Below, piece by piece: positions 6,236 to 63,546 of a stretch of DNA of 64,000 nucleotides (positions within the stretch are counted from its first letter, which is position 1; the number at the start of each line of letters is the position of its first letter). This stretch comes from Cytophagales bacterium (lineage in GTDB: Bacteria; Bacteroidota; Bacteroidia; Cytophagales; Spirosomataceae). The stretch is taken from positions 1-64,000 of the forward strand of contig JAAFJP010000021.1 in the NCBI GenBank assembly GCA_013298125.1, read 5' to 3'. A model generated the notes under the pieces. It had not been told where the DNA came from and ran no database searches. It saw nothing but the letters and a program-made list of their open reading frames with translations. Made by a program: the position numbers and the translations under genes.

Positions 6236-6353
6236 AAGTAGTTTGCAGTAGGCAAGTACGCAGTAGGTAGTAAAGTAATATAACTCTCTCATTATTTGAC
6301 AGTTATCCCATTTTACTGCCTACTATTCACTGCCAACTAATAACTGCCTACTC
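6236..6353. repeat. Quasi-tandem palindrome (GCAGTAGG word)
   Basis: The whole spacer between two convergent stop codons is filled. The left arm repeats GCAGTAGGCA-like words (about 6244-6272), and the right arm repeats the complement ACTGCCTACT (about 6313-6352). The stop codon of the following minus-strand gene lies at the arm edge. The same word recurs near 9.6 kb and 55.2 kb. Confidence 0.75.
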
Positions 6354-6950
6354 CTACCTCACCGACCCAAACACATAAAACATCTCCTCCCCTATTTCAA
6401 GGCTTCTTTCGGCATATTTGGCATCCATTAGTTCTGTTCCATCAAAGGCTTTTGGGTCGTTGTATTTGATGGGAAATCTTCGCTCTGCTCCAAAAACTAC
6501 GGGACAATTTTCATCGGCTGAATTGCAAGTTACTACCGCCCCAAAATGACTTTCTGGATTGAATTTATCATTATAAACCTTTGAAAAACAGATAATTGGC
6601 TGTTCGTCTTCGGCATACTTTATGGCATATACTGGATTTTGATTTTCACTTAATTTCAATACATCAAAACCTTGTTTTGTCAAAGTCTCAGCTACCTTTG
6701 GGAACATGGCGGTTGCCTCCGTTCCGCCCGAATAACAGAACACGTTTTTTACTTGAAAATGATACGCCATCGTAGCCGCCCAAATCTGTGATAAATGGCT
6801 TCTGCGTGAATTGTGCGTACAAATAAAGTTCAAACGAATGGTCTCGTTTTGGTCTTTTTTTGCTTGGATATAGTCGATTAAAGGTTGTAAGATCTCTTTC
6901 CTTTCGTTTGAAATGTTGTTGAAAGAGAATTTTGAAATGATGTTTATCAT
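6354..6950 (-). CDS. Low-molecular-weight phosphatase / arsenate reductase-like protein
   Basis: The 198-residue protein has the CX5R phosphatase loop C44-THNSR-R50-S, reading FICTHNSRRS, at the end of the first strand. This is the catalytic signature of LMW tyrosine phosphatases and thioredoxin-linked arsenate reductases. A later cysteine-containing segment (CNSADENCP) could supply the resolving cysteines used in arsenate reduction. The DUF6428 gene just upstream on the same strand belongs to a family commonly seen beside arsenic genes in Bacteroidota. Reduction of arsenate to arsenite is therefore the favoured role. No ArsR regulator or efflux pump is visible in this window. Confidence 0.75.
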   Translation of the reverse strand: MINIISKFSFNNISNERKEILQPLIDYIQAKKDQNETIRLNFICTHNSRRSHLSQIWAATMAYHFQVKNVFCYSGGTEATAMFPKVAETLTKQGFDVLKLSENQNPVYAIKYAEDEQPIICFSKVYNDKFNPESHFGAVVTCNSADENCPVVFGAERRFPIKYNDPKAFDGTELMDAKYAERSLEIGEEMFYVFGSVR

Positions 6951-6975
6951 GGTTTTGAAATTCGTTTTAAAATTG

Positions 6976-7085
6976 AACTTAGAGGTTTAGAGGAATAGAG
7001 TTTTGACCGATATTTTTAAACTTAGAGGTTTAGAAGAATGGAGTTTTGAAGAATGGCTTTCTCTATTTCTCTAAACCTCTAAGTT
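6976..7085. repeat. Quasi-tandem palindrome (AACTTAGAGGTTTAGAG word)
   Basis: AACTTAGAGGTTTAGA begins at 6976 and recurs at 7019 as a direct near-copy. The inverted copy, CTCTAAACCTCTAAGTT, occupies 7069-7085 and abuts the stop codon of the DUF6428 gene at 7086. The element fills the spacer between the two arsenic-linked genes. Confidence 0.8.
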
Positions 7086-7559
7086 TTAACAACACCCACC
7101 CCCAGGCGTACAACAAGCCGTAGTCGTAGCTTGTAAATCCGCTAAACTCACCTTCACTTTCGTAGGCAAAACGCCACAAGCATCTAACGCCAAGCAAGCG
7201 GTTTGTTTTGAGGTCAGCACAAAGGTTTCACCATTAAAATCTAAACCGTATTTTCCAATCGTTTCAGTTTGATATTCGACCTCAATTTCTGAATCTTCTA
7301 TCCCCAAAATCTTTTCTGACATCGAAATAACATTCAGTAATTTTTGAGGTTCTAAACGATGATCGGTGTCGTTGGCATTCCATAATTGGAAATTTACGAC
7401 CTTTTCACTTCTGACTGTTCCACCGCAATCAATAAAATTTTTGGTAATCATTCCCACTTCTGTAACATGGAAATGGGTGGGAACAGACGATCCATTTTGC
7501 AGCTCAAAACGTAAATTATCTACGTTTTCTAAGATATTTTTAACTTCTGATAGTTTCAT
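7086..7559 (-). CDS. DUF6428 family protein with cysteine-rich tail
   Basis: The true start is the ATG at 7559 (MKLSEVKNIL), giving 157 residues. An upstream in-frame extension only translates an inverted repeat. The sequence matches the DUF6428 family (FELQNGSSVPTHFHVTEVG, NFIDCGGTVR, FQLWNANDTDHRL), which is often found in arsenic-resistance loci of Bacteroidota. The last residues read ACCTPGGGCC, two vicinal cysteine pairs separated by a flexible PGGG turn. Such thiols could bind As(III) or another soft metal, which is my inference. The gene sits directly upstream of the CX5R arsenate-reductase-like gene, probably in one operon. Confidence 0.8.
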   Translation of the reverse strand: MKLSEVKNILENVDNLRFELQNGSSVPTHFHVTEVGMITKNFIDCGGTVRSEKVVNFQLWNANDTDHRLEPQKLLNVISMSEKILGIEDSEIEVEYQTETIGKYGLDFNGETFVLTSKQTACLALDACGVLPTKVKVSLADLQATTTACCTPGGGCC

Positions 7560-7592
7560 TTTTTTGATTGATTTATTCCTTTTAAATTGATA

Positions 7593-7664
7593 ATACTGTA
7601 GCTCGAAGTGGCACTTCGAGACGTTAGAGTCCGATTCTCGAAGTGCCACTTCGAGCTACAGTAT
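7593..7664. repeat. 72-bp nested palindrome, copy 1 (CTCGAAGTGGCACTTCGAG)
   Basis: Perfect 29-bp arms (7593-7621 and 7636-7664) surround a 14-base loop. Each arm contains its own palindrome CTCGAAGTGGCACTTCGAG, so the element can fold as one long hairpin or two small ones. A second copy with the same loop length lies at 27373-27442. Both sit just upstream of minus-strand genes. Confidence 0.9.
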
Positions 7665-7673
7665 CACAATAAT

Positions 7674-8543
7674 TTATTTTTTCGCTTTATCAATCTCCAT
7701 TTTTGCCTCAGCCAAATCTTTTTGAAATTGAGGATTTTCTAATAAATAATTCACAAATTGTCTCGCAAAGATACGCCCCGATTCAGAATCTGAGGGATAA
7801 TGAACCCCGATAATTTCACGAGAATATGCCATGTCGTAGGCATTTTTCACAAATAAATTGGTTTGTTCTGGTACTAATTCTTGATAGATATATGCCGCCA
7901 CATAAGAAGCCGAAGAATGCCCCGACGGATAGGCTTGAAAATTAGTATTATTCAAATTTTTTATCCGAGAATCAAGCATATAGGGGCGTGTGCGGTTGTA
8001 TTGGAATTTCAAAGCCCAAAAATAATACGTACAATCTGACCAGATTTTAGTCATCAGTTTAGCAGTAATCGGCAGTTTCTCAGGACTAAAATAGGGCAAT
8101 TGACGACCTATATGAAAAAGATTTTTCTGAAAACGATTATAAGTAGAATCCGTGGGTTTCACGAATACATCATAATACACATTCGCAAATGCCAATGACT
8201 CTTTTACCTTCTCCTCCGAACGTGCCGTTGCTTGTAATTTCAACAAAAACTCAATTTCTGCCTTCGTTTGTGCGGAACTATTGGCAGGGAAATCTGGTAA
8301 CTTGAACTCACTCACAGGATGCAACAAATACGTGGGTTTCAGTATCAATTTCAAGGCATTCTTGGGCGAAAGTCCTTCCAAAGGAAATTGCTTTCTGTCG
8401 GTGGAATCGAGCATGGGTTTGCCACTCAGTTTGGCTAATTCCTTGTAATGTCCACTAATGGGCGTAAGGGGGCGAGTATTTTTTTGAGCAAAAATATTTA
8501 CTGAAATCATCAGTAAAAAGGCAATTTTTAAAATGTACTTCAT
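7674..8543 (-). CDS. Secreted PAP2 / class A acid phosphatase
   Basis: The protein has 289 residues from the ATG at 8543, with a signal peptide (MKYILKIAFLLMISVNIFAQ). The complete vanadate-haloperoxidase/PAP2 signature is present: K179-x6-R186-P187, P206-S-G-H209 and S241-R-x5-H248-x3-D252. The arrangement matches class A non-specific acid phosphatases, which release phosphate from organic monoesters in the periplasm. The SigZ-type sigma gene ends 29 bases upstream on the same strand. The sigma factor may therefore be co-transcribed with, or control, this enzyme. Confidence 0.88.
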   Translation of the reverse strand: MKYILKIAFLLMISVNIFAQKNTRPLTPISGHYKELAKLSGKPMLDSTDRKQFPLEGLSPKNALKLILKPTYLLHPVSEFKLPDFPANSSAQTKAEIEFLLKLQATARSEEKVKESLAFANVYYDVFVKPTDSTYNRFQKNLFHIGRQLPYFSPEKLPITAKLMTKIWSDCTYYFWALKFQYNRTRPYMLDSRIKNLNNTNFQAYPSGHSSASYVAAYIYQELVPEQTNLFVKNAYDMAYSREIIGVHYPSDSESGRIFARQFVNYLLENPQFQKDLAEAKMEIDKAKK

Positions 8544-8572
8544 GGTATTTTTTTGTTTTTGTAATAAGATTT

Positions 8573-9154
8573 TTACACACATACACAGCTTCCATCCTTA
8601 CTTTGTATTTCAATAATATTCCCGTATTGGTCAGTTTTCACGGGACAACAATCGATTAATTTTTGTTTTAATTGCTCACGTCCACGCTGTACTCGAGACT
8701 TTGCTCCTGATATAGAAATACCAAGACGATGGGCTAATTCTACTTGCGTAATTCCTTCAATATCAACCAATTGTAATGCTTCTTGATATTTTGGGTCAAG
8801 GTCTTTTTTGAATTCTTCTAACCAAAGCCCAACCATTTCATTTAGATTATTTTCTTTAAAATGAGATTCTTCTTCGGATTGCTGTTGATGAGATTCTTGA
8901 TTTTCTAATTGTTTTTTTTGAGAGCGAAAATAATTCAAAACCGTATTTCGGGCAATCTGAAAAACCCAACCAGCCACACGTTCTTCGTCTCGCAAAAGAT
9001 GCAAATTTTGATGAATTTTAATGAAAACTTCTTGCAAAATATCATCCGTAACGTCCGCATTATGGGTCTGATTTCGGATAAAATCTTTGACAGGATGGCT
9101 AAATTTTAGCCAAATTTCATTGAAAGTGATGGTATTTTCGAGGGTTTGAATCAT
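8573..9154 (-). CDS. ECF sigma factor of the SigZ type
   Basis: This 193-residue sigma-70 factor (start ATG 9154, MIQTLENTITFNEIW) shows region 2 (DDILQEVFIKIHQNL, VAGWVFQIARNTVLNYFR) and region 4 (YQEALQLVDIEGITQVELAHRLGIS, KSRVQRGREQLK). The C-terminal tail LIDCCPVKTDQYGNIIEI ending SCVCV carries CC and CxC cysteines. SigZ proteins characteristically end with such a cysteine tail, which may sense metal or redox state. The acid phosphatase gene follows after 29 bases. Longer in-frame starts at 9184 or 9214 are less likely because homologues begin near this methionine. Confidence 0.85.
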   Translation of the reverse strand: MIQTLENTITFNEIWLKFSHPVKDFIRNQTHNADVTDDILQEVFIKIHQNLHLLRDEERVAGWVFQIARNTVLNYFRSQKKQLENQESHQQQSEEESHFKENNLNEMVGLWLEEFKKDLDPKYQEALQLVDIEGITQVELAHRLGISISGAKSRVQRGREQLKQKLIDCCPVKTDQYGNIIEIQSKDGSCVCV

Positions 9155-9269
9155 GGTGGAATGCTCTTTTCTGAAAGACGGCATTACTTTGAAAAGGATG
9201 CAAAATATAAACAAAAAGGCATAAAGCTCTGATGCCTTATGCTCTTTTTGCTATTCTTAACTTCGTATT

Positions 9270-9428
9270 TTATGCTCTTTTTATATTTTTATAAAAAAGG
9301 CTGAGGTCTGTTTTTGATAACAATTCATTCATCTTTTTTAGTTTGTCTTGTACCGCCTCTTCTTCTGTTGGGTATCTGGTTACAGATTTAACAGATTTTT
9401 GTGGTAATATTTTCTCTAATGTCTTCAT
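9270..9428 (-). CDS. Small charged protein, 52 residues
   Basis: A complete short frame begins with ATG at 9428 and ends at TAA 9270. The product is lysine- and glutamate-rich, with a central helical stretch (PTEEEAVQDKLKKMNELLS) that could form an amphipathic helix. It has no signal peptide or known domain. It lies between a sigma factor gene and a repeat region. The coding composition looks credible, but there is no independent evidence of expression. Confidence 0.4.
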   Translation of the reverse strand: MKTLEKILPQKSVKSVTRYPTEEEAVQDKLKKMNELLSKTDLSLFYKNIKRA

Positions 9429-9481
9429 AAAATAATATTAAATTAGAAATTGGATTATTCGGCACTGAGCTATTAATCTAT

Positions 9482-9578
9482 AGACTTGTTGTGAATTGAT
9501 TATCAAATAGTTAGCATTAAAATTATCTTTTTGGAAATTTTAATGCTAACTATTTGATAATCAACAGACAACAAGTCT
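9482..9578. repeat. Long interrupted hairpin
   Basis: Inner perfect 27-bp arms (9498-9524 and 9536-9562) enclose an 11-base loop. Outer 11-bp arms (AGACTTGTTGT at 9482 and ACAACAAGTCT at 9568) extend the stem past 5-base bulges. No gene is present, and the element resembles a small non-autonomous palindromic repeat. Confidence 0.85.
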
Positions 9579-9600
9579 TATGTATAGTATATTTGTCATA

Positions 9601-9710
9601 AGTAATAGGCAGTAGGCAGTTTACTAAATTCAAATTTAACTATCTCATTATCAGTTACTTATTTTGATTTTTACTTACTGTTTACTGCAAACTAAATTTT
9701 ACTGCCTACT
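9601..9710. repeat. Quasi-tandem palindrome (GGCAGTAGGCAGT word)
   Basis: The left arm AATAGGCAGTAGGCAGTTTA (9604 onward) is answered by TACTTACTGTTTACTGCAAA and ACTGCCTACT up to 9710. The right end coincides with the truncation point of the ATPase pseudogene that follows. Confidence 0.7.
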
Positions 9711-9712
9711 TA

Positions 9713-10052
9713 AAAGAAATAAAACAGACTTTGGGGGTTAGTATGATACAAACATCAATCAATGCGTGGCAGAATGAAGATACCCAGATTGATTGATTTA
9801 TTGATTGACCGCCGAGACCAAGTGATTAATCTTTGCGAGATAAAATTTTCAATTAACCCTTTCACGATTGATAAAAAATATGCCGAAAATTTAGGTAATA
9901 AAGTCAGTTCTTTCAGAGAAGCCTCACAAACTCGAAAAGCCATTTATCTAACTATGATTACTACCTTTGGACTTACCAAAAATGATTATAGTTCCTCGAT
10001 GGTGCAGAATGAATTGACGATGGATTGTTTGTTTGTGAGATTGACTGTTTAA
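9713..10052 (+). pseudogene. C-terminal remnant of an ATPase-nuclease paralogue
   Basis: The reading starts at 9713 with KEIKQTLGVS, aligning with ESIKKALGIS and EAIKMALGIS in the two intact paralogues (13158 and 18141). It continues to QID and is then thrown out of frame by a 4-base GATT duplication near 9791-9798. After the shift the frame reads LLIDRRDQVINLCEIKF and runs to 10052. Only the last 110 or so codons survive, including the EIK of the nuclease-like domain. The 5' break abuts a quasi-tandem palindrome. Confidence 0.8.
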
Positions 10053-10106
10053 AAATATTTGTTGTTTGACCTCTTTTTACATTTACAAATAAAAATCTAA
10101 CTTTCA

Positions 10107-10304
10107 ATGAATCAATACCTTAGCTATCAAAAATTCGTTACAAACGATGATGCTCTATCATTTATTTACCTTCTGAAAAAACATGAAATTCGTTTTAAAA
10201 TTGAAGATACTACTCAAATTTTTGACCCTTCAATGGCAAATAATTCTCATGAATTGAAGGTAAATGTGATGGTATTTACAACTCAAAGTTCCACATTTTT
10301 ATAG
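10107..10304 (+). CDS. Short protein, probably a 3'-truncated gene (DUF2007-like)
   Basis: The 65-residue product opens like small Bacteroidota proteins that span two ferredoxin-like strands and a helix (YQKFVTNDDALSFIYLLKKHEI, then FDPSMANNSHELKV). After residue 52 the sequence becomes unlike the family (VFTTQSSTFL), which suggests a frameshift or truncation. It sits between two pieces of accessory DNA, downstream of the ATPase remnant. Function unknown. Confidence 0.45.
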   Translation: MNQYLSYQKFVTNDDALSFIYLLKKHEIRFKIEDTTQIFDPSMANNSHELKVNVMVFTTQSSTFL

Positions 10305-10391
10305 TACACTTAGTTATGACTTTATAACGCATTTTGAATCACTCGAAAAAAATATTAACTTTCTATCCTACTAAAAAATCAATGCATACTC

Positions 10392-10904
10392 ATGAAAAAA
10401 ATTATCACTTCTGCCATCACTTTTCTTGTAATCTCTTTTTATTGCAAAGCACAAAAAAATCTTAACGAAAACCCTTTATTTTTTAAGTTAGCAGAGCGAC
10501 ATATCCATTATCCGATAAATGCTATAAAGGTTAGTTTATACGGAAGAATATACACAAAATTTACTGTTAATAAAATTGGAAAAATTGAAAATATTGAAGT
10601 GTTTTTCCCTGTAATGAAGCCCGAATACGATAAATTGATTGGTTTTACAAAATCAATAAAATCTGGATTATCAAAAATTCCTCTTTTGGGGATAGGCTAC
10701 GATGGAGAATATATTGTTCCTATTGCATTTATATTTACAAATCACAGAGATTCTCCCGAAATTGCATATCCTAAAAACAGGCTACCAAATGATTTTGATA
10801 CCGAACATAGGAAATTTCTTCATGAATTGAAAATAACTGCAAAAAGTGATGATTATCCATCAATAATTTCAGCTCCACAGAGCATACAGATAGATGAACA
10901 ATAA
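10392..10904 (+). CDS. Secreted TonB C-terminal-like domain protein
   Basis: The 170-residue protein has a signal peptide (MKKIITSAITFLVISFYCKA). Residues 35-105 resemble a TonB C-terminal fold, HYPINAIKVSLYGRIYTKF followed by VNKIGKIENIEV. In Bacteroidota such free TonB_C modules are common as periplasmic proteins of unknown partner. The tail after residue 115 is polar and unassigned. A strong bidirectional terminator separates it from convergent ispH. Confidence 0.6.
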   Translation: MKKIITSAITFLVISFYCKAQKNLNENPLFFKLAERHIHYPINAIKVSLYGRIYTKFTVNKIGKIENIEVFFPVMKPEYDKLIGFTKSIKSGLSKIPLLGIGYDGEYIVPIAFIFTNHRDSPEIAYPKNRLPNDFDTEHRKFLHELKITAKSDDYPSIISAPQSIQIDEQ

Positions 10905-10938
10905 AAAAACCTTCAAAATTAATTTTTGAAGGTTTTTA
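10905..10938. terminator. Bidirectional terminator between the TonB_C-like gene and ispH
   Basis: AAAACCTTCAAAA pairs with TTTTTGAAGGTTTT, with an A-run on one side and a T-run on the other, placed between two convergent stop codons. Confidence 0.85.
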
Positions 10939-10951
10939 AAATATTTTTTTA

Positions 10952-12548: not shown

Positions 12549-12550
12549 CC

Positions 12551-13033: not shown

Positions 13034-13038
13034 TTGAA

Positions 13039-13144: not shown

Positions 13145-13157
13145 TTTTATTCTGATA

Positions 13158-22001: not shown

Positions 22002-22194
22002 GTAGGGGCGTATCGCATACGCCTGTTGGTGTTTGTATGATGGTCGTATGCGATACGCCCCTACATTATTTGTTGTGATACATGGTCGTATGCGATACGC
22101 CCCTACATTATTTGTTATGATACATGGTCGTATGCGATACGCCCCTACATTGTTTGTTGTGATACATGGGCGGGCGTATGCGATACGCCCCTAC
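22002..22194. repeat. REP cluster: palindrome plus 42-bp tandem array, downstream side of RAYT
   Basis: One left arm, GTAGGGGCGTATCGCATACG at 22002, faces four right arms (CGTATGCGATACGCCCCTAC) ending at 22064, 22106, 22148 and 22194. The right arms recur every 42 bases, then 46, with nearly identical linkers (ATTATTTGTTGTGATACAT type). The array ends about 45 bases from the stop codon of the transposase gene. Confidence 0.9.
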
Positions 22195-22238
22195 ATTATC
22201 TCTTAACCATTCTTTCTAATAGTTTTTTGAAAAACTCT

Positions 22239-25595: not shown

Positions 25596-25596
25596 T

Positions 25597-25722
25597 GATT
25601 GGTTGATTGGTTACTGGTTGATTGGGGAATTGGTTGATTGGTTTACAGAGACATTATAATCATACTTTAATTTTGTTCCTAATAACCAATAAACCAATTC
25701 TCCAATAAACCAGTAACTAATT
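25597..25722. repeat. Quasi-tandem palindrome (GGTTGATTGG word)
   Basis: The left arm is a run of 8-bp words (GATTGGTTGATTGGTTACTG at 25597 onward). The right arm, AATAACCAATAAACCAATTC and CCAATAAACCAGTAACTAAT, is its degenerate complement. It fills almost all of the spacer between the GH105 and pseudouridine synthase genes. Confidence 0.8.
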
Positions 25723-27372: not shown

Positions 27373-27442
27373 TACTGTAGCTCGAAGTGGCACTTCGAGA
27401 CGTTGTAGTAAGATTCTCGAAGTGCCACTTCGAGCTACAGTA
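27373..27442. repeat. 72-bp nested palindrome, copy 2
   Basis: Perfect 28-bp arms (27373-27400 and 27415-27442) flank a 14-base loop. The arms match copy 1 at 7593-7664, and the loop shares its first four bases (CGTT) and its last three (GAT). It is placed in the cobS-cobC spacer. Confidence 0.9.
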
Positions 27443-30003: not shown

Positions 30004-30167
30004 AGCCTTTAAGGTTGGGCTTCTCCGAAGCTAATTATCTTCCACTTTTCTTTCTACAAAGGTTTAACTTCTCCGAAGTAATATGATAAAATACTTCGGA
30101 GAAGTTAAACCTTTGTAGAGAAAAAACAGTGAAAAATTAGCTTCGGAGAAGCTCAACCTTAAAGGCT
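30004..30167. repeat. Nested double hairpin of 164 bp upstream of cobT
   Basis: Outer 33-bp arms (30004-30036 and 30135-30167) differ at one position. Inner 27-bp arms (30054-30080 and 30092-30118) are perfect, with an 11-base loop. Both stems contain the same core, CTTCTCCGAAG. The element fills much of the 328-base gap between cobT and the dioxygenase gene. No gene is seen in that gap. Confidence 0.9.
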
Positions 30168-34522: not shown

Positions 34523-34580
34523 GTTGTTTTCAGACGTTTTAAATTTACTCAAAGATAATTGGTTTTATTGGTTTTTAAGG

Positions 34581-34674
34581 TCACTGAGTTTCACAAAGTT
34601 TACCACTGAGTTTCACAATGTATTTTATGTTTTTCTTCGTGATACTTTGTGGCTAACTCAGCGAAACTCAGTGT
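34581..34674. repeat. Quasi-tandem palindrome (CACTGAGTTTCAC word)
   Basis: CACTGAGTTTCACAAAGTTT is followed by a second CACTGAGTTTCACAATG. The opposing arm reads ACTTTGTGGCTAACTCAGCG and GAAACTCAGTG. It lies between the nifU operon and the LysR gene. Confidence 0.75.
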
Positions 34675-34702
34675 CCATAAAATTGCTGAGAATCAACCTC
34701 TT

Positions 34703-39318: not shown

Positions 39319-39378
39319 GTAGGGGCGTATCGCATACGCCCTCTTCGGACAAAACGGGCGTATGCGATACGCCCCTAC
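39319..39378. repeat. Intact REP pair (GTAGGGGCGTATCG family) away from RAYT
   Basis: Perfect complementary 23-bp arms at 39319-39341 and 39356-39378 enclose a 14-base loop. The family is that of the palindromes flanking the RAYT gene at 22.2-22.8 kb, so this is probably a mobilised copy in the 5' region of the MscS gene. Confidence 0.9.
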
Positions 39379-39591: not shown

Positions 39592-39711
39592 GAGTCGTAG
39601 GTCGTAAGTCTGTAAGTCGTAAGGTTAAAATAGATTTGAACTACGACAAAAGCCATAGAAAACAACAGTATCAAATTCTTACGACTTATAGACCTACGAC
39701 CTACGACTTGT
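39592..39711. repeat. Quasi-tandem palindrome (GTCGTAGGTCGTAAG word)
   Basis: AGTCGTAGGTCGTAAGTCTG is followed by TAAGTCGTAAGG. The opposing arm is TTCTTACGACTTATAGACCT and ACGACCTACGACTT. It fills the spacer between the ECF sigma gene and the small gene, ending next to the sigma stop codon. Confidence 0.8.
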
Positions 39712-40510: not shown

Positions 40511-40601
40511 CAACCTCACCCCCAGCCCCTCTCCTGCTGAGAGGGGAGTATTCGTCTGAGTAGCTCCCCTCTCAGCAGGAGAGGGGTCGGGGGTGAGGTT
40601 G
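40511..40601. repeat. Long GC-rich hairpin with 38-bp arms
   Basis: The arms at 40511-40548 and 40564-40601 differ at two positions, and the core is CCCCTCTCCTGCTGAGAGG. It stands in the 412-base divergent spacer between the sigma factor and ppk1 genes. Sequences of this CCTCACCCCC type are widespread intergenic repeats. Apart from presumed promoters, the spacer shows nothing else. Confidence 0.9.
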
Positions 40602-46088: not shown

Positions 46089-46136
46089 TTTTAAGTTTTT
46101 AAGTAAGGGAATTTTAAGGTAATATTTTAAATAATT

Positions 46137-46224
46137 TTCAATGCTCAATGTTCAATACACAATATTCAAGTGTTTAACTGTCAATTACTTGAACATTGTG
46201 TATTGAAAATTGGATATTGAAAAT
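46137..46224. repeat. Quasi-tandem palindrome (TTCAATGCTCAATG word)
   Basis: TTTCAATGCTCAATGTTCAA and TACACAATATTCAAG face TACTTGAACATTGTGTATTG and AAAATTGGATATTGAAAAT. It occupies much of the ftsW-moaE spacer. A related word is used near 56.2 kb. Confidence 0.75.
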
Positions 46225-46244
46225 TTAAAAATTTATTTTGTAAC

Positions 46245-46659: not shown

Positions 46660-46748
46660 TTTAGGGGTGTTAGGTGTTAGGTGTTAGGTGTTAGGGTCGA
46701 AAAACTAAAACCTAACCGAGCGACGGTCGCACCCAAAACCTAACACCT
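46660..46748. repeat. Quasi-tandem palindrome (TTAGGTG octamer) reaching into folA
   Basis: The left arm is almost pure 8-bp tandem repeat (GGTGTTAGGTGTTAGGTG). The right arm has CCTAACCGAGCG, then AAAACCTAACACCT, with a GCGACGGTCGC palindrome in between. The right arm covers the stop codon and last two codons (Arg-Cys) of folA. It fills the whole moaE-folA spacer. Confidence 0.85.
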
Positions 46749-47231
46749 CTCCAACTCCACAAACGAATATTTATACGAATGTTTCTCGTCTGTTTCAAAA
46801 TCCTCACGATGGATTTCTTGCCAAATACTTTTATCAATTTCAGGAAAAAAAGTATCTCCTTCAAAGGCATGATGCACCTCGGTCAGATAGATTTTATCAA
46901 CCAAAGATAAGGATAATCTGTAAATCTCAGCCCCTCCGATGATAAATGCTTCGGTCTCGCCAAGTTCCTGAGCCAATTTGATAGCATTTTCTAATGAACT
47001 GACCGTATGGCAATTATCTATCTGAAAATCAGGATTTCTGGAAATAATGATGGAAGTGCGGTTGGGCAAGGGCTTACCGATAGAGTCAAAAGTCTTACGC
47101 CCCATGATGATACAATGACCCGTCGTGAGGCGTTTGAATTGTTTTAAATCATTAGGTAAATGCCAGATTAACTGATTGTTATGTCCGATTACGTTGTTTT
47201 GTGCAACGGCTACGATTAAAGATAGTTTCAA
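46740..47231 (-). CDS. folA: Dihydrofolate reductase
   Basis: The 163-residue enzyme reduces dihydrofolate to tetrahydrofolate with NADPH. The start SLIVAVAQNNVIGHNNQLIW, HLPNDLKQFKRLTTG with the catalytic acid D27-like position, IIMGRKTFDSIG and the AFIIGGAEIYRL block are all present and complete. The last two codons and the stop are formed by an octamer repeat that fills the downstream spacer, so the tail ELERC may have been altered by repeat expansion. Confidence 0.95.
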   Translation of the reverse strand: MKLSLIVAVAQNNVIGHNNQLIWHLPNDLKQFKRLTTGHCIIMGRKTFDSIGKPLPNRTSIIISRNPDFQIDNCHTVSSLENAIKLAQELGETEAFIIGGAEIYRLSLSLVDKIYLTEVHHAFEGDTFFPEIDKSIWQEIHREDFETDEKHSYKYSFVELERC

Positions 47232-50718: not shown

Positions 50719-50831
50719 TTACCACAAAGGAGCAAAGAAAACAAAGTTTTAGTTAATACATTCTTTGTGTCTTTATGGTACTGAATTTTGATAAATAATT
50801 CTTTGTGATACTTTATGCCTTTGTGGTAAAG
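50719..50831. repeat. Quasi-tandem palindrome (ACCACAAAGG / CCTTTGTGGT)
   Basis: TTACCACAAAGGAGCAAAGA and AAACAAAG face TTCTTTGTGTCTTTATGGTA and CTTTGTGATACTTTATGCCT plus TTGTGGTAA. It fills most of the spacer between the M28 and GH3 genes. A related word occurs near 34.6 kb. Confidence 0.8.
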
Positions 50832-55141: not shown

Positions 55142-55150
55142 ATCTTTTTG

Positions 55151-55233
55151 AGTAGGCAGTTATATAGTTTGCAGTAGGCAGAAAAAAATTAGCAACTTTT
55201 TTACTGCCTACTGATAAACTGATAACTGACCAC
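55151..55233. repeat. Quasi-tandem palindrome (AGTAGGCAGT word)
   Basis: AGTAGGCAGTTATATAGTTT and GCAGTAGGCAG face ACTGCCTACTGATAAACTGA and TAACTGACCAC. The word is the same as near 6.2 and 9.6 kb. It follows the lhgO start on the upstream side. Confidence 0.75.
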
Positions 55234-55373
55234 TATTTTATGGTTAAATTTCTGACACAAAGATAATCAAAAAGCCTCGCATGAGTCAAACTAATCTTGT
55301 AAGATGCAAGGGTATTTGATACGATTTTCCTTATGCGATATTCATCTCAAAAAATTAAAAATGATTAACTCTC

Positions 55374-56100: not shown

Positions 56101-56191
56101 AAAACAAATACCAACCATTTTTTTTAAGTTTCATACAGATACCGCCATGTCTGTCAAGTGCAAAGACCCGCCAGTGTTTGCACTTTTTTTT
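56101..56191 (+). ncRNA. Candidate small RNA with C-rich loops, downstream of two FNR-like boxes
   Basis: No frame of useful length is present. The sequence can fold into a small hairpin (CAGA-TACCGCCATG-TCTG) and a terminator stem, CAAGTGCAAA with TTTGCACTT, followed by T residues. Both loops expose a C-rich CCGCC. The position after two Crp/Fnr-type boxes recalls FnrS, an FNR-controlled sRNA of E. coli, but there is no sequence similarity claimed. The start is estimated from the box positions. Confidence 0.4.
56155..56191 (+). terminator. Rho-independent terminator
   Basis: AAGTGCAAA pairs with TTTGCACTT across a loop containing GACCCGCCAG, followed by at least seven T residues. It ends the candidate small RNA, or the Crp/Fnr transcript if that reads through. 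Confidence 0.8.
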
Positions 56192-56198
56192 AGAGTAA

Positions 56199-56286
56199 AA
56201 TTTTCAATGTACAGTATTCAAGGTCTTAAATTTTTACTTTTTCTACTTGAAAATTGTACATTGAGTATTGCACATTGAAAATTTCC
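56199..56286. repeat. Quasi-tandem palindrome (TTCAATGTACAGTATTC word)
   Basis: AAATTTTCAATGTACAGTAT and TCAAGG face CTTGAAAATTGTACATTGAG and TATTGCACATTGAAAATTT. It lies between the candidate small RNA and the purH stop codon. Confidence 0.75.
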
Positions 56287-56294
56287 TTCAAAAA

Positions 56295-57815: not shown

Positions 57816-57822
57816 TGGTCTT

Positions 57823-57919
57823 TGTTATCAGTTATTGGTTACTGGTTTATTGGTTACTGGTTAATAATGAGTAACATAGGTACTATTAACTGATAACTAA
57901 TAACTGATAACTAATAACT
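57823..57919. repeat. Quasi-tandem palindrome (TTATTGGTTACTGG word)
   Basis: TTATCAGTTATTGGTTACTG and GTTTATTGGTTACTGGTTAA face CTATTAACTGATAACTAATA and ACTGATAACTAATAAC. It begins eight bases upstream of the purH start codon, so it must lie in the purH leader or promoter. Confidence 0.8.
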
Positions 57920-58154: not shown

Positions 58155-58265
58155 TGAAAACAGGCTCATTTTCAACCTGATAGTCTAAAATTTAATCAAC
58201 ATAGCGTTGCTATGCTTCATAAATTTTAAACTACCAGATTAAAAATGAACTCAGTTTTCATTCAA
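58155..58265. repeat. Imperfect 110-bp hairpin upstream of ompH
   Basis: The left side (GAAAACAGGCTCATTTTCAA at about 58159, then CTAAAATTTAATCAACATAG) is about 80 percent complementary to the right side (CTATGCTTCATAAATTTTAA and ATGAACTCAGTTTTC). The tip is GCGTTGC. It lies in the 498-base gap before ompH, whose other contents are the purH-side palindrome and AT-rich DNA. Confidence 0.8.
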
Positions 58266-58313
58266 AACGAAAAGTATTAACAGATTCATTATCAATATTT
58301 TAACAAATCAGAA

Positions 58314-58925
58314 ATGAAAAAATTATCCCTAATCGTGTGCGGCGGTTTGTTGGCAATCGGTACTTTATCATGCGACAAAGCTGGAAATAAATCAACAGCA
58401 ACGGCTTCAACAGCAACCACTAAGACAGAAGTAGTAAAGAAAACAGTTTATGTAAATACGGATTCGTTATTGGCGGGTTATCAGTTTTACAAAGACGCTC
58501 AAAAAGAATTTGAAAACAAAGGATACCGTTTACAGGTGGACTTGGGACAACGTGAAAAAGCTCTTCAAGGTGAATTAGGAGCAATTCAACAAAGAGCTCA
58601 AACAATGACTCAGGCGGAATTGCAAGGTGCGGATATGATGTTGAAGAAAAAAGGTGCTGAATTACAACAATACAGCCAACAACGTCAGCAAGCATTGGCG
58701 GGAGAACAAGCCAAAAAAATGCAAGAATTGTACGCAAACATCCGTGAGTATGTGAAGAAACACAACGCTGAAAACAACTTTGAGTTTGTGTTGGGATATA
58801 CCACAGCGGGCGGAGGAATTTTATTTGCTGACGAATCAGCCGATAGAACTAAGCAAATTGTGGATGGATTGAATGCTGAATATGCAGAAAAGAAAAAATC
58901 AGCACCAGCCCCTGCGAAGAAATAA
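58314..58925 (+). CDS. OmpH/Skp-family periplasmic lipoprotein
   Basis: The 203-residue protein has a lipobox (AIGTLSC, cysteine near residue 20) followed by a Thr/Ala-rich linker. The OmpH/Skp core (residues 42-190) has VYVNTDSLLAGYQFYKDAQK, a long helical hairpin rich in Gln and Lys, and the closing EFVLGYTTAGGGILFADESA with the family's beta strands. Skp proteins are chaperones for outer-membrane proteins. The lipid anchor is a Bacteroidota variation. A strong terminator follows about 100 bases later. Confidence 0.9.
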   Translation: MKKLSLIVCGGLLAIGTLSCDKAGNKSTATASTATTKTEVVKKTVYVNTDSLLAGYQFYKDAQKEFENKGYRLQVDLGQREKALQGELGAIQQRAQTMTQAELQGADMMLKKKGAELQQYSQQRQQALAGEQAKKMQELYANIREYVKKHNAENNFEFVLGYTTAGGGILFADESADRTKQIVDGLNAEYAEKKKSAPAPAKK

Positions 58926-59227
58926 GTAGCTGTCGGCAGTTAGCTGTTAGCTTTCGGCTTAAAACAGACAACTTTCTTGACGATTATTTATTTTCGATTG
59001 CTCAATTAGAGCCTTAATTATGAAAAAGCCTTCTCAAATCATTTGGGAAGGCTTTTTTGATTATTACAAAAGAAAAAATCTTTACAGGTTTTTAAAACCT
59101 ATAAAGATTTAATGGTCTCTTTTCATTAAACCTATCGGAAGTAGCCTATAATTTATAATCGATAATTTTAACCAACTAAATTTTTGATTTTAAAGCTGAT
59201 TGCCGACTGCCAAATGCTAACAGCTTT
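58926..59227. repeat. Split repeat pair enclosing two further hairpins, ompH to Fe-S gene
   Basis: AGCTGTCGGCAGTTAGCTGT (58929 onward) and the complementary TTGCCGACTGCCAAATGCTA, ending AACAGCT (to about 59226), bound the 301-base spacer. Inside are the ompH terminator (59023-59058) and a second hairpin, AATCTTTACAGGTTTT with AAAACCTATAAAGATT (59077-59109). No gene is seen. Confidence 0.7.
59023..59058 (+). terminator. Terminator downstream of ompH
   Basis: AAAAAGCCTTCTCAAAT pairs with ATTTGGGAAGGCTTTTTT with a very short loop and a T-run. It can act in both directions. Confidence 0.88.
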
Positions 59228-60555
59228 TATTTAACCCCATCCACCCAATTAAACCTATCAGTTGGAGAGAATTTCCAAGGAGCTTGATTATTTTCTAAGT
59301 TCGAGAACATGGCATTCCAAGAAGCTGGGGCATCCGATTCTTCCATGATTTGATAACGACGCATTTGCAAAATAATATCCAAAGGCGAAATATTGATTGG
59401 GCATTCCTGCACACAGGCATTACAAGTTGTACAAGCCCGTAATTCTTCGGCAGAAATATGGTCGCCGTAAAGTGACTTGCCATCGTCCACAAAATTTCCT
59501 CCATTGGCAGCCATATTTGCCCCCACGATTTCGAGACGGTCACGGGTGTCCATCATGATTTTTCTTGGTGAAAGTTGCTTACCCGTCATGTTTGCAGGAC
59601 AGGCAGAGGTACAACGCCCACATTCTGTACATGAATACGCATCCATGAGGTTTTTCCAAGTTAAATCTTTGACATCTTTTGCTCCAAAACGGGCTATTTC
59701 GGTAGATGCGTTGGCATCTGGTTGAGCCATACCCAACATAATCTGAACTTCTTTCGTCACGTCAGGCATATTCGGAATTTCCCCTTTTGAGTTAAGATTC
59801 GAGAAATAAGTATTTGGAAATGCCAAGAAAATATGAAGATGTTTTGAATAAGTAACGTATAAAGCAAAGCCCAAAATACCCAAAATATGCACCCACCAAG
59901 TAATACGCTCATAAGCCACCAAAGCTCCCTCTGACCAAGAAGTAAACAATGGTTTCAGAAATCCTGAGAAAGCAAACGTACCAGCTTGGTGATAATGTTC
60001 GTTGCCTCGGTCTTGCAAAACGCTATCGGCAGCATTCATGGTCAAAAGAGCCGTCATCAAAATGATTTCTGCAAAAAGAATGGTGTTAGCATCAATGACT
60101 GGAAAACCGTTGAGTTCACGGTGGCGAGTGGGTTGTAGTCTTTCTACTTTGGTAATATTTCTACGAGTCAAGAAAATTACGCAAACGACAAGCACGCCGA
60201 AGGCTAAAAATTCAAAAAAGTTGATTAATAGACGGTAAACATCCCCTAAGAAAGGAGCAAAAAGACGGTGAGTCCCGAGGATTCCGTCCAAGAGAATTTC
60301 TAAGACTTCAACATTAATCAAGATAAAACCCGCATAAATGACAAAGTGCATAATGCCTACCACAGGGCGGTCAAACATCTTTTTTTGTCCAAAAGCAATC
60401 CGAAGCATCGTCCCCCATCGTTCGGAAGGATTATCAGAACGGTCTTCGGCACGACCTAATTGGATGGTTTTTTTGATGATATTAACTCGTTTGCTAATCA
60501 AGAAACCAGCCCCACCCAGAGCCAATACAAAGAGAATTTGTTGAAGAATGTGCAT
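59227..60555 (-). CDS. Membrane-bound [4Fe-4S] oxidoreductase (heterodisulfide-reductase-like)
   Basis: The 442-residue protein has about six membrane helices in the N-terminal 260 residues and two ferredoxin-type [4Fe-4S] motifs, CTECGRCTSACP near 312-323 and CTTCNACVQECP near 377-388. This is the architecture of the Bacteroidota (Fe-S)-binding protein that usually precedes a CoB-CoM heterodisulfide-reductase-like subunit B gene. That partner is not adjacent here, since ompH lies next to it on the opposite strand. It probably moves electrons between a quinone pool or cytochrome and a soluble partner. The donor is unknown. Confidence 0.85.
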   Translation of the reverse strand: MHILQQILFVLALGGAGFLISKRVNIIKKTIQLGRAEDRSDNPSERWGTMLRIAFGQKKMFDRPVVGIMHFVIYAGFILINVEVLEILLDGILGTHRLFAPFLGDVYRLLINFFEFLAFGVLVVCVIFLTRRNITKVERLQPTRHRELNGFPVIDANTILFAEIILMTALLTMNAADSVLQDRGNEHYHQAGTFAFSGFLKPLFTSWSEGALVAYERITWWVHILGILGFALYVTYSKHLHIFLAFPNTYFSNLNSKGEIPNMPDVTKEVQIMLGMAQPDANASTEIARFGAKDVKDLTWKNLMDAYSCTECGRCTSACPANMTGKQLSPRKIMMDTRDRLEIVGANMAANGGNFVDDGKSLYGDHISAEELRACTTCNACVQECPINISPLDIILQMRRYQIMEESDAPASWNAMFSNLENNQAPWKFSPTDRFNWVDGVK

Positions 60556-60560
60556 ATTTT

Positions 60561-60643
60561 GTTGAGTTACTAAGTTATTAAGTTGCTAAGTTATCAAGTT
60601 ACTGATTATTAACAACTTAATAACTTAGCAACTTAATAACTTT
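60561..60643. repeat. Quasi-tandem palindrome (TAAGTTATTAAGTTGC word)
   Basis: GTTGAGTTACTAAGTTATTA and AGTTGCTAAGTTATCAAGTT face AACAACTTAATAACTTAGCA and ACTTAATAAC. It starts six bases upstream of the Fe-S gene start codon, so its promoter must overlap or lie beyond it. Confidence 0.8.
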
Positions 60644-60781
60644 CAATGGTCTCACAATTTACAGAGAAAACCAAATCTTACAAAGTTTGTTGTTTGAAAA
60701 TATTATGCAAGCATACTAAGTAAAGAAAATCTGTTTACAATTTCTTAACATTCCGTTCATAAATAGTTGATGTTGCCATCG

Positions 60782-60789
60782 TAATTTTG
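60782..60789 (+). promoter_or_regulatory. Promoter -7 element very close to a small gene
   Basis: TAATTTTG fits the TAnnTTTG element and ends 10 bases before an ATG at 60800. Transcription from it would start only a few bases before the start codon, giving a very short leader. No good TTG is seen at the usual -33 spacing. Confidence 0.4.
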
Positions 60790-60799
60790 AAACAAAAAC

Positions 60800-60931
60800 A
60801 TGAAGCAACACAGAGCAATTTTTCAACAAAACGGTTGGAGAGATTTTCAGAAAAAGAGAAGAGTATCAACAAATCAATATGACAAAATAAACCAAGATTA
60901 CGATAAGGTTTCGTTTGACTGGATTCAATAA
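60800..60931 (+). CDS. Small basic protein, 43 residues, in a compact transcription unit
   Basis: A complete frame runs from ATG 60800 to TAA 60929-60931. The product, beginning MKQHRAIFQQNGWRDFQKKR, is basic in its first half, and the second half is Asp/Tyr/Gln-rich (NQYDKINQDYDKVSFDWIQ). It has no signal peptide, membrane segment or known domain. A promoter element lies just upstream and a strong terminator overlaps the stop codon, so the unit is bounded on both sides. It could alternatively be an sRNA. Confidence 0.5.
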   Translation: MKQHRAIFQQNGWRDFQKKRRVSTNQYDKINQDYDKVSFDWIQ

Positions 60932-60966
60932 AAAAGCCGTTTCAAATTGATTGAGACGGCTTTTTT
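60930..60966 (+). terminator. Terminator of the 43-residue small gene
   Basis: AAAAAAGCCGTTTCAA pairs with TTGAGACGGCTTTTTT and overlaps the last bases of the small gene's stop codon. It can also serve the convergent nuo operon. Confidence 0.88.
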
Positions 60967-61044
60967 ATTGATATTAACTTGGTAAAACACTTTTAATAAA
61001 ATCCGAGATTTTGCCCTATACGAAGTATTTTTCTTCTACCCCAC

Positions 61045-61554
61045 TTAAAAATTCCTCTCCCCAGCCTCACGTTTTCCCAACATCACTGCACCCACCATTG
61101 CCACAAAGAATAGGATTGAAATTAACTCAAAAGGAAGTACGTAATCACGATAAAGGATTCTTCCGAGTCCTTCCACCATACCCGTTTGTGAGCTAAATGA
61201 CTTAACATCAACTACTTCCGTTAAATTCATCTTGCGAGATGCTGCCACTACGATAACTAATAATGTTCCACCCAAAACTGCACCTGCCAATTTGGTCATG
61301 GTCGTTTTGGAGTCTGGCATATTGGTTCGTAAATCCATCATCATAATCACGAAGAGGAAAAGTACCATGATTGCCCCTGCATATACCACAATGTTCACGA
61401 CCATCAAAAACTGAGCGTTCAAAAGCACATAATGCCCTGATATACAGAAGAATGTGAACACTAAATATAATACGCTATGAATAGGGTTTTTAGACAAAAC
61501 CACCATCAATGCACTCAGAAGCGTTAAAGCTGTTAAAAAATACCAAAAATTCAT
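61045..61554 (-). CDS. nuoJ: NADH-quinone oxidoreductase subunit J
   Basis: The 169-residue membrane subunit of complex I starts at ATG 61554 (MNFWYFLTALTLLSALMVVL). It has five predicted helices, with the conserved FFCISGHYVLLNAQFLMVVN and IVVYAGAIMVLFLFVIMMMD that form the redox-coupled TM3 region in NuoJ. A longer upstream frame only translates the repeats in the spacer. It follows nuoI on the same strand. The usual next subunit, nuoK, is not seen downstream: the operon ends here against a convergent small gene. Confidence 0.93.
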   Translation of the reverse strand: MNFWYFLTALTLLSALMVVLSKNPIHSVLYLVFTFFCISGHYVLLNAQFLMVVNIVVYAGAIMVLFLFVIMMMDLRTNMPDSKTTMTKLAGAVLGGTLLVIVVAASRKMNLTEVVDVKSFSSQTGMVEGLGRILYRDYVLPFELISILFFVAMVGAVMLGKREAGERNF

Positions 61555-61560
61555 GTTTTT

Positions 61561-61600
61561 TAAGGTATTAGGTATTAGGTATGAGGTATGAGGTATTATG
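61561..61600. repeat. Heptamer-octamer tandem repeat in the nuoI-nuoJ spacer
   Basis: The run TAAGGTATTAGGTATTAGGT and ATGAGGTATGAGGTATTATG consists of 7-bp words without a clear opposing arm here. The rest of the spacer (to 61673) has TGATAATTGTTAATTGATAA-type repeats. The word GGTATGA recurs in the nuoG-nuoH spacer. Confidence 0.75.
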
Positions 61601-61673
61601 CTCATTATTCATTCTTAACCCTAAATTTAATTTCATTTATTGTTTACTGATAATTGTTAATTGATAACTGAAA

Positions 61674-62192
61674 CTACTTCCACCCGTCTCTCAAATAACG
61701 ATTATCCATTTTTTCAACCAATTTATCTTTTCCAAAAATTACTTCCGAACGATCTTCAAATACAGGTACCATTTTGTCATGTTGTAGGTAAATAGCTTGT
61801 TTTGGACAGGCTTCTTCGCATAGTCCACAGAAGATGCAACGAAGCATATTTATTTCGTAAACACTCGCATATTTTTCTTCACGGTATAAATGTTCTTCGC
61901 CTTTTTTACGCTCATCTGCCACCATCGAAATTGCCTCCGCAGGACACGCCACTGCACATAATCCGCAGGCAGTACAACGTTCTGCCCCTTCTTCGTCACG
62001 TTTTAGGATATGATGTCCACGAAAAACAGGACCTAAATAACGTTTTTCTTCTGGATAACGAATGGTAACTTTTTTAGAGAAGAAGTGCTTTAAAGTCGTA
62101 CCCATACCACCCAAAATTGCTGGTAAATAAATACGTTCCGAAAAGGTTAATTCTCTTTGTTCTAAGACTTTGGTTTTATTACTTAATTTCAT
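61674..62192 (-). CDS. nuoI: NADH-quinone oxidoreductase subunit I
   Basis: The 172-residue subunit carries two [4Fe-4S] clusters (N6a, N6b) through CTACGLCAVACPAEAIS near residues 72-88 and CIFCGLCEEACPKQAIY near 118-134. RYPEEKRYLGPVFRGHHILK precedes them, as in other NuoI proteins. It passes electrons towards the quinone-binding interface formed with NuoH and others. It lies between nuoH and nuoJ, both on the same strand. Confidence 0.96.
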   Translation of the reverse strand: MKLSNKTKVLEQRELTFSERIYLPAILGGMGTTLKHFFSKKVTIRYPEEKRYLGPVFRGHHILKRDEEGAERCTACGLCAVACPAEAISMVADERKKGEEHLYREEKYASVYEINMLRCIFCGLCEEACPKQAIYLQHDKMVPVFEDRSEVIFGKDKLVEKMDNRYLRDGWK

Positions 62193-62197
62193 GTTCT

Positions 62198-62295
62198 AAT
62201 TTGAAAATTTGGCAATTTGAAGATTTGAAAATGAGAGAAAAAATAGAATTTGAAATCATTTTCAAATTCACACATTCTCAAATCTTCAAATTAAT
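62198..62295. repeat. Quasi-tandem palindrome filling the nuoH-nuoI spacer
   Basis: AATTTGAAAATTTGGCAATT and TGAAGATTTGAAAATGAG face TTTTCAAATTCACACATTCT and CAAATCTTCAAATTAAT. The element spans the spacer from one base before the nuoH stop codon complement to five bases from the nuoI start. Confidence 0.85.
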
Positions 62296-62296
62296 G

Positions 62297-63457
62297 TCAC
62301 GCTGTTGCGAGTTTTTTCTTTTTGTATTGAGCCTGACTGTACAAAGCTGAAACGATAATCATAATGGCAACACCTGCCCATGAAGCCGCTACTGTGTACC
62401 AGTTTGAACCACCATCATTTACGGTAAATAACATCGTTGCACCTGTCAAAACTACATTAAACATCGAAAGTGGAATTAAACCTGTCCAACCTAAGCCCAT
62501 CAATTGGTCATAACGGAAGCGTGGGAGTGTCCAACGTACCCACATGAATACGAAAACGAAGAATAATGCTTTTCCGATTAATGCTCCTACGCCTAAAAGT
62601 ACCGCAATGTTATTTCCGAATTTCTCAAAGATGAAATTATAGCCTGGATAATCATAACCTCCAAAATATAAAGTTGCCATCACAGCCCCTGAAATAAACA
62701 TATTGATATATTCAGAGAACAAATAAAAGCCCAATTTCATCGAAGAGTATTCTGTGTGATAACCACCGATAAGTTCAGTCTCACACTCAGGTAAATCGAA
62801 AGGAGTACGATTACATTCTGCAAAAGCACACACAATAAAAATCACGAATCCTAATGGTTGATAAAGGATATTCCAATGTCCACCTTGTTGTGTCTCTACG
62901 ATTGATTTTGTTGAAAGTGAACCCGACAACATCAAAATTGCGATGATTGAAAGTCCCATCGCTAATTCATAAGAAATATTTTGAGAAGCCGCACGAATTG
63001 CTCCTAACAATGAATATTTGTTATTCGATGCCCAACCGCCAATTAACACACCATAAACTCCCAAAGACACAATTCCAAATACCCAAAGAATACCGATATT
63101 TACGTCAATGCCTTGTAAATCAAGCATTACGCCTCCGCCCAAGTCTAATTTATCGCCAAAAGGCACAACTACCGAAGTCATCAAAGCCGTGAACATCGAG
63201 ATACAAGGACCTGCGATAAATAACCATTTGTTGGAATGTGCAGGAATAAAATCTTCCTTCATGAACATCTTAACGGCATCCGCAAGTGGTTGTAAAATCC
63301 CGAAAGGACCTGCACGGTCTGGACCGACACGGTCTTGCATAAAAGCCGCAATGACACGCTCAAAGTAAGTTGAATAAGCCGCAACACCCAAAGTGATGAC
63401 AAAAATCAAACCTACATAGATGGCTTTTGCGGTAAATAATGTTGATGTAATTTCCAT
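62297..63457 (-). CDS. nuoH: NADH-quinone oxidoreductase subunit H
   Basis: The 386-residue membrane subunit starts at ATG 63457 (MEITSTLFTAKAIYVGLIFV). It contains the NuoH blocks RVGPDRAGPFGILQPLADAV, KMFMKEDFIPAHSNKWLF, ECNRTPFDLPECETELIGGY and WVRWTLPRFRYDQLM. NuoH forms the quinone cavity at the junction with the peripheral arm. The gene is complete and flanked on both sides by repeat-filled spacers. Confidence 0.96.
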   Translation of the reverse strand: MEITSTLFTAKAIYVGLIFVITLGVAAYSTYFERVIAAFMQDRVGPDRAGPFGILQPLADAVKMFMKEDFIPAHSNKWLFIAGPCISMFTALMTSVVVPFGDKLDLGGGVMLDLQGIDVNIGILWVFGIVSLGVYGVLIGGWASNNKYSLLGAIRAASQNISYELAMGLSIIAILMLSGSLSTKSIVETQQGGHWNILYQPLGFVIFIVCAFAECNRTPFDLPECETELIGGYHTEYSSMKLGFYLFSEYINMFISGAVMATLYFGGYDYPGYNFIFEKFGNNIAVLLGVGALIGKALFFVFVFMWVRWTLPRFRYDQLMGLGWTGLIPLSMFNVVLTGATMLFTVNDGGSNWYTVAASWAGVAIMIIVSALYSQAQYKKKKLATA

Positions 63458-63464
63458 ATGTTTC

Positions 63465-63546
63465 GAGGTATGAGGTATGAGGTATAAGTTATAAGGTTTT
63501 ATGTATTTCCCATACCTCATAATTCATACCTCATACCTCATACCTT
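63465..63546. repeat. Quasi-tandem palindrome filling the nuoG-nuoH spacer
   Basis: GAGGTATGAGGTATGAGGTA faces CATACCTCATAATTCATACC and TCATACCTCATACCTTT. It extends from eight bases before the nuoH start to the first base of the nuoG stop codon. Confidence 0.88.

Follow-up and report, generated by a model that had tools for sequence, protein, structure and literature searches.

Intergenic hairpins with tandem-word arms often keep their position and change their words among Arcicella genomes

The window analyzed here is a 64,000-nucleotide stretch (G000:C14:1-64000) of a 5.85 Mb genome in 72 contigs, and its intergenic spacers contain imperfect hairpins whose arms are themselves near-tandem repeats of a short word. 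The genome is from a freshwater bacterium whose nearest named relatives based on purH are species of Arcicella, with a protein identity of 96% to A. aurantiaca. A first-pass annotation listed fifteen such sites in the window and proposed that a copying process generates the tandem words and their inverted copies. Genes were called by a simple codon-usage script, hairpins were scored by a stem-scoring routine, and tandem arms were detected as self-match at lags of 6–18. The edges given for each element are those of the best stem, so they are approximate. Each listed site was compared as a 130-base window to 300 dinucleotide-preserving shuffles. The hairpin was significant (p ≤ 0.01) at 14 of the 15 sites, the exception being 9601 (p = 0.19). 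The tandem signal was significant (p ≤ 0.05) at 12, failing at 34581, 50719, and 55151, and both properties were found at 11 sites. These data establish most of the listed sites as hairpins with tandem arms.

The AGTAGGCAGT word occurs at three of the sites. A AGTAGGCAGT-type hairpin fills a convergent spacer at 6262..6324, where the hairpin and tandem signals exceed the 300 shuffles and the z measure does not score the best-stem arms as tandem. AGTAGGCAGT words lie close together at 9601..9710, the weakest of the listed sites, where the tandem signal (p = 0.04) and not the hairpin stands above the shuffles, and the same word forms the hairpin at 55151..55234 (hairpin p = 0; tandem p = 0.07). 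The arm-period test and the shuffles support hairpins of the TTAGAGGT word at 6976..7085, of the TGATTGGT and ACTGGTT words at 25596..25721, where the array begins right after the upstream stop codon, and of the AAGTTATTAAGTTGCT word at 60572..60642. The same tests support a CAATGTACAATATTC-type hairpin 3′ of the purH stop codon at 56188..56294, where A. aurantiaca instead carries a simple stem-loop with a T-tail, and a purH-leader hairpin of the GTTATTGGTTACTGG word at 57830..57919, where other Arcicella species have hairpins of other words. Seven congeneric genomes (G001-G007, here G1-G7) supplied orthologous spacers as additional evidence at 39593..39708 (GTCGTAGG and GTCGTAA words; the G7 spacer is 32 nt), at 62197..62293 (AATTTGAA word), and at 63466..63545 (GGTATGA word; the G7, G5, and G2 hairpins have three other words and the G3 spacer is 6 nt). 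The CACTGAGTTT hairpin at 34576..34679 has a hairpin p of 0, a tandem p of 0.14 on 130 nt, and a left-arm period z of 3.2. Shuffles and copy comparison assign the TTCAATGTTCAATA hairpin at 46133..46225 to a dispersed family that has other, related members in the same genome, and shuffles support the hairpin with about four copies of GTTAGGT at 46663..46750. The hairpin at 50719..50829 (p = 0) has CACAAAG-type arms that are not significantly tandem (p = 0.78), and a different hairpin is present in G7, G2, and G5. A tandem GGTATTA/GGTATGA array with weak pairing at 61563..61671 was missing from the first-pass list and was recognized by reading the sequence and the orthologous spacers.

The size of the class was determined in a 464 kb sample of the genome, consisting of the window and 20 further stretches, with 290 spacers of at least 40 nt. 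There were 103 hairpins scoring at least 36, compared to 0, 1, 0, 0, and 1 in five shuffles. Tandem-arm hairpins at this score numbered 40, and each of the five shuffles gave none. An equal number of hairpins in shuffled spacers would have counted against the proposal, and this outcome did not occur. Among the left arms of at least 20 nt in hairpins scoring at least 30, 43 of 121 were tandem (z ≥ 3.5); shuffling the arms gave a mean of 3.0 and a maximum of 8, so tandem arms are not a mere by-product of pairing. Strict arrays were concentrated between genes, with 27 in 53 kb of spacer versus 12 in 405 kb of coding sequence. An inverted partner was present in the same spacer for 19 of the 27, compared to 6 when the remainder of another array-bearing spacer was substituted and 0 when the remainder was shuffled. 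In other genomes, at least one element scoring at least 36 was found in 13 of 80 purH-centred loci, and in none after one shuffle of each.

The words had been described as 7–13 bases long and different between loci, with a few recurring. The measured periods are instead mainly 7–8 and their alternating doubles: 39 of the 43 tandem arms have a period of 7, 8, 14, 15, or 16. The two arms match better in register (identity 0.84) than when shifted by one unit (0.72) in 26 of 28 cases, a comparison favored by choosing the best register. Words do differ between loci, but not every element has its own: an 11-mer is common to 56 of 1081 element pairs, versus 4.7 (maximum 10) in a column-permuted null. 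Single linkage on 11-mer sharing divides 47 elements into 19 components, the largest of which joins 19 elements with mixed words, and a single GGGANTN-type word for the genome was accordingly not found. Sharing with other genera (13 of 1316 pairs versus 7.5, maximum 15) was not significant, and neither was a similarity test for species-specific word repertoires (117 of 500 permutations). Word match counts vary strongly among species, and genome completeness also differs. Overlapping matches to two copies of GGTATGA, which are not counts of loci, numbered 13 in the window genome, 35 in G7, 22 in G4, and 0 in G2. Counts of the TTAGGG word have no control, since reversing this word only rotates it. 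Of 296 Bacteroidota genomes, 12 contained three copies of TAACTGA, whereas a scrambled word was present in 1 and a reversed control in 2; the triple TAACTGA was absent from the window genome. At two loci in other Bacteroidota (L271 and L275), the first unit of the TAACTGA array coincides directly with the TGA that ends the called gene.

The elements have a defined position and polarity. Most were said to start no more than about 20 bases from a stop codon, and this is partly an effect of short spacers, because 23 of 30 same-strand elements do so compared to 18.5 with random placement. A tighter form of the claim is real: 19 of the 30 begin no more than 6 nt from the upstream stop codon, where random placement gives 9.2 and none of 5000 placements was as high. 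Hairpins without tandem arms start this close in 10 of 50 cases (random 6.9). The median distance from same-strand elements to the next start codon is 20 nt, and in convergent spacers 6 of 10 elements span from stop to stop with no more than 12 nt at either end. By the gene calls used here, eight of the fifteen listed starts (39592, 46660, 50719, 55151, 57823, 60561, 62198, and 63465) in fact adjoin, at 4–15 bases, a minus-strand start codon rather than a stop. The 5′ arm contains more G than C in 65 of 72 elements, compared to 68 versus 51 with 13 ties for other hairpins. Five of the six exceptions in the window genome have TTCAA or TTAAC words, and the bias is weaker in other genera (21 versus 7). 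Where a word occurs on both strands within 300 bases, the word precedes its complement in 11 of 11 pairs, three of which are one orthologous spacer in three species. The idea that the stop codon seeds the word was considered and rejected. Stop trinucleotides in the 5′ arms numbered 473, whereas dinucleotide shuffles gave 447 and the reverse complements of stops numbered 443. The rise in self-match at the period comes 3–5 nt past the first base of the stop codon.

Orthologous spacers from the seven congeners were compared for the window and two further stretches picked for their richness in elements. Persistence was scored where both spacers were at least 60 nt, using a score cut of 26 and a z of 3.3. 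When the window genome has an element, the relative also has one in 20 of 46 comparisons (12 spacers); when it has none, the relative has one in 3 of 40 (17 spacers). The text of the persisting elements is not conserved. Same-arm similarity between species is 0.32, close to the 0.30 of unrelated spacers (mean rank 0.55), with shuffles at 0.23 (50 pairs). In contrast, arm-to-arm similarity within a species is 0.66 and exceeds the between-species value in 47 of 50 orthologous pairs, with the sister pair G3-G6 excluded. The spacer at L202:13829-13972 has a hairpin in seven of eight species, built from GGTATGA-like, AGTTATRA, or TTAGGGR words, and the sister species G5 and G7 carry different words both there and at 63458-63545. 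The spacer at 62193-62296 is 104 nt in the window genome, 132 nt in G2, and 19–20 nt in G3, G5, G6, and G7. At a spacer that four other species have in short form, two species have the AATTTG word in common, and this word is visible in the short site. Over all such cases, element words matched the short orthologous spacer at 7.86, compared to 6.45 for other short spacers of like length (0 of 300). A comparison of L044 with L045 (90.5% identity over 20 kb) identified five internal divergent blocks, two of which hold hairpins of different words, and a third such hairpin (L044:1695-1788) lies outside any divergent block. These data show that both arms of an element come to carry the same new word at a position that is kept.

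The reading we tentatively prefer, to which we give a little under an even chance, is that these hairpins are made and remade by DNA copying. Slippage would multiply a 7–8-base word in the gap just past a stop codon. The strand would then fold back or switch template and copy the array in reverse to give the second arm. The resulting quasi-palindrome may become a site where the inner part is occasionally rewritten in both arms, with point mutations eroding the hairpin between rewritings. Template switching is reported to homogenize the arms of inverted repeats in the available text of PMC7202029 and PMC8604942. We infer slippage and template switching as the steps, a local origin of the word, events at the level of DNA rather than RNA, and any part that the hairpin plays as a trigger. 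Of the originally proposed process, the joint production of a tandem word and its inverted copy is the best fit to the higher similarity of arms within than between species. Single, unrelated insertions, which would speak against it, may have occurred, since filled and near-empty versions of 62193-62296 exist and words recur within the genome; dispersal may therefore contribute.

The evidence points more to DNA copying than to a mobile element of fixed sequence or to an RNA structure under conservation. The mobile explanation, that non-autonomous elements resembling REP doublets forming hairpins (REPINs; REP, repetitive extragenic palindrome) or miniature inverted-repeat transposable elements (MITEs) were inserted after stop codons, perhaps by an HUH-type transposase, with the words as families and old copies lost, is a possibility that we consider unlikely. 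It accounts for the filled and short versions of 62193-62296, the recurrence of words at unrelated loci (56 versus 4.7 pairs), the different GGTATGA counts among genomes, a TTCAA-word family with common outer and inner parts, and the fixed arm polarity, and the genome has five Y1_Tnp matches. However, 33 of 48 elements are singletons when compared to the hairpins of the 464 kb sample at 70% coverage and 72% identity, no constant ends or GTAG-type end family were seen by eye, and the AATTTG word is visible in the short site of its spacer. With regard to a MITE in particular, short sites are present and the ends of the elements are variable. Known Y1 transposases were rejected as carriers: at the nine loci read (L232-L235 and L216-L223 were left out), no flanking hairpin reached a tandem z of 3.5, and two flanks (L224 right and L226 left) reached only 3.1. 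Plain heptamer microsatellites, in which two slippage arrays of similar C-poor words arise independently, one per strand, and pair by composition, are very improbable. In their favor, polymerase slippage is promoted by heptamers in Mrazek's view (cited in the available text of PMC4679880), and of the 15 TAACTGA loci examined in other Bacteroidota, 12 are direct arrays that no hairpin of score ≥28 spans, with such a hairpin at the other 3. Independent arrays do not account for inverted partners of 19 of 27 arrays versus 6 of 27 for another array-bearing spacer, for the identity of the arms in register, or for the joint change of word in both arms.

Selection on RNA hairpins that act as terminators, 3′-end protectors, or leader structures and are otherwise free in sequence is also improbable, if somewhat less so than the microsatellites. 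Placement just past stop codons would fit, as would the purH-leader hairpins of several species, where the outer stem was read by eye as TTAGG/CCTAA or TGAGG/CCTCA, both sides having changed together. T-tails are twice as frequent as at randomly chosen places in these spacers (0.16 versus 0.08), but they follow only 8 of 50 elements. Ordinary short stem-loops have them in 17 of 29 cases, and hairpins without tandem arms as a whole in 24 of 86; the stem and T-tract of an intrinsic terminator thus do not characterize the class. Pairing selection requires no tandem words, and single changes between G3 and G6 left 29 broken pairs and 7 G-U pairs. The sense-strand mismatches of the elements, 77 G-T and 86 A-C compared to 92 and 61 in hairpins without tandem arms, also argue against RNA selection, but this test is weak and weighs against our preference to that extent: in convergent and divergent spacers the top strand is arbitrary and should show no bias, yet the counts for this class were 39 and 19, so mismatch counts cluster by element. 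We lean to the view that pairing mainly records the way in which the DNA arose. At particular genes such as purH, the hairpin may act in the leader.

Several further observations count against remaking by local DNA copying. The signal for a local seed comes from 39 pairs in 7 spacers, with 39577 and 63458 below the control mean, and deletion could also leave a short spacer behind. Between the sisters G3 and G6 (93% identity in 4,062 aligned bases), stems differ by 36 single changes and by 4 double changes that compensate each other; both directions were counted, so that spacers are entered twice. Because these changes are mostly single, arm-to-arm copying is not frequent at this scale, and joint rewriting is therefore episodic or elements are replaced whole. 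Faster divergence was not found, with an excess identity of 0.060 (n = 166) for spacers without these hairpins versus 0.048 (n = 127) (p = 0.33). The recurrence of words at unrelated spacers calls for dispersal besides a local origin, and the G-rich 5′ arm is unexplained by purely local slippage. A mixture is possible in which arrays elsewhere serve as templates. We rank local copying with template switching first and REPIN-like dispersal second. A bolder idea, which we regard as improbable, is that Arcicella has an active spacer-writing system. A dedicated enzyme, such as a reverse transcriptase, a polymerase that makes repeats, or an HUH nuclease acting on single strands, would lay a G-rich word after the stop codon and a fold-back copy before the next gene, with species-specific and changing words, the position being kept and the text replaced.

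Multi-copy palindromes without tandem arms at 7586, 27373, 30004, 39319, 40511, and 58127 are REP/MITE-like and should be kept apart from the tandem class. The sequence at 40511-40601 is a near-perfect palindrome of about 90 bp, AACCTCACCCC..GGGGTGAGGTT, found at more than 30 other places in the genome in copies that are mostly 82–95% identical. It is an ordinary REP/MITE-like family separate from the tandem-word class. A 164-bp palindrome family with 77-nt arms is represented at 30004-30167, and in A. aurantiaca (L227) a sequence similar by eye flanks the gene for a Y1 transposase; the family and this gene are a candidate RAYT-REPIN pair. GTAG-ended GTAGGGGCGTATCGCATACGCCC palindromes occur at 22002-22194 and 39319-39378, and a 42-bp tandem array of the GTAGGGGCGTATCGCATACGCCC palindrome occupies 22040-22199. 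Members of a 70–85 bp TACTGTAGCTCGAAGTGGCACTTCGAG palindrome family lie at 7586-7670 and 27373-27442, with copies of 93–96% identity elsewhere in the genome. A Y1 transposase open reading frame at L201:9684-10400 (G000:C4) has AACGAGGGGTTTAAACCCCTCGTT palindromes on both sides in a RAYT-like arrangement.

A literature search at the title and abstract level, in which subscription journals are poorly covered, found no many-word tandem-arm hairpins in Bacteroidota. Related background includes the short tandemly repeated repetitive (STRR) sequences of cyanobacteria (Mazel), Costa 2002, Elhai 2008, and Ogata's hairpin elongation. The genus is a natural experiment in which position, which is kept, can be separated from text, which is replaced with both arms sharing the new text. 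Pairing alone is poor ground for annotating such hairpins as conserved RNA structures or terminators.

The claim that the elements are unlike anything known gives way to two precedents. The accessible portion of PMC4692102 describes degenerate G-rich heptamer arrays in spacers, GGGAATC in Xanthomonas and GGGGA(C/T)T in Nostoc. The Xanthomonas genomes have 70 and 75 convergent array pairs forming inverted repeats. The arrays lie an average of 28 nt from the 5′ neighboring gene, and most are flanked by the same gene pair in both species compared, with changed length and sequence. The Arcicella elements resemble them in being convergent G-rich degenerate heptamers near the upstream gene with the G-rich arm 5′ (65 of 72). 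They differ in having many words per genome, where that portion of PMC4692102 describes one type in Xanthomonas and in Nostoc, has few paired arrays in Nostoc, stresses G-quadruplex capacity, and does not report a change of word in both arms at the same spacer. The second precedent is the P6b stem of the trnL intron in Nostoc and Calothrix, a degenerate 7-nt stem (TDNGATT or NNTGAGT) for which the available text of PMC4476775 describes repeated shifts of motif class and changes in copy number. Both sides of that stem are 7-nt repeats and the class switches among relatives, as in Arcicella, but P6b is a single intron locus with two classes, whereas the Arcicella elements occupy many intergenic loci outside trnL with many words. 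The TAACTGA repeats of Beggiatoaceae, Cyanobacteria, and some Bacteroidetes are direct and intergenic at gene edges, with one inverted example in the genome studied (PMC4679880, as far as its text is available). TCAGTTA/TAACTGA forms the arms of a G7 hairpin at L202:18500, but the Arcicella arms are generally paired (19 of 27 strict arrays) and the TAACTGA repeats are not. REPINs and the GTAG palindromes mobilized by RAYTs are likewise intergenic, palindromic, polar, and multi-family in the parts of PMC3733652 and PMC3116915 consulted; their fixed short stems, GTAG end, high copy number, and element-flanked RAYT were not found in the Arcicella tandem class. Template-switch mutation at quasipalindromes, as presented in the available text of PMC7202029, PMC3820800, and PMC8604942, does not by itself make tandem words. 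The origin of intergenic heptamer repeats and their placement at gene edges are left open in the accessible parts of the Xanthomonas, Nostoc, and Beggiatoaceae papers. The architecture was thus already known, and what is new in Arcicella is the presence of many words per genome together with a measured joint replacement of the word in both arms.

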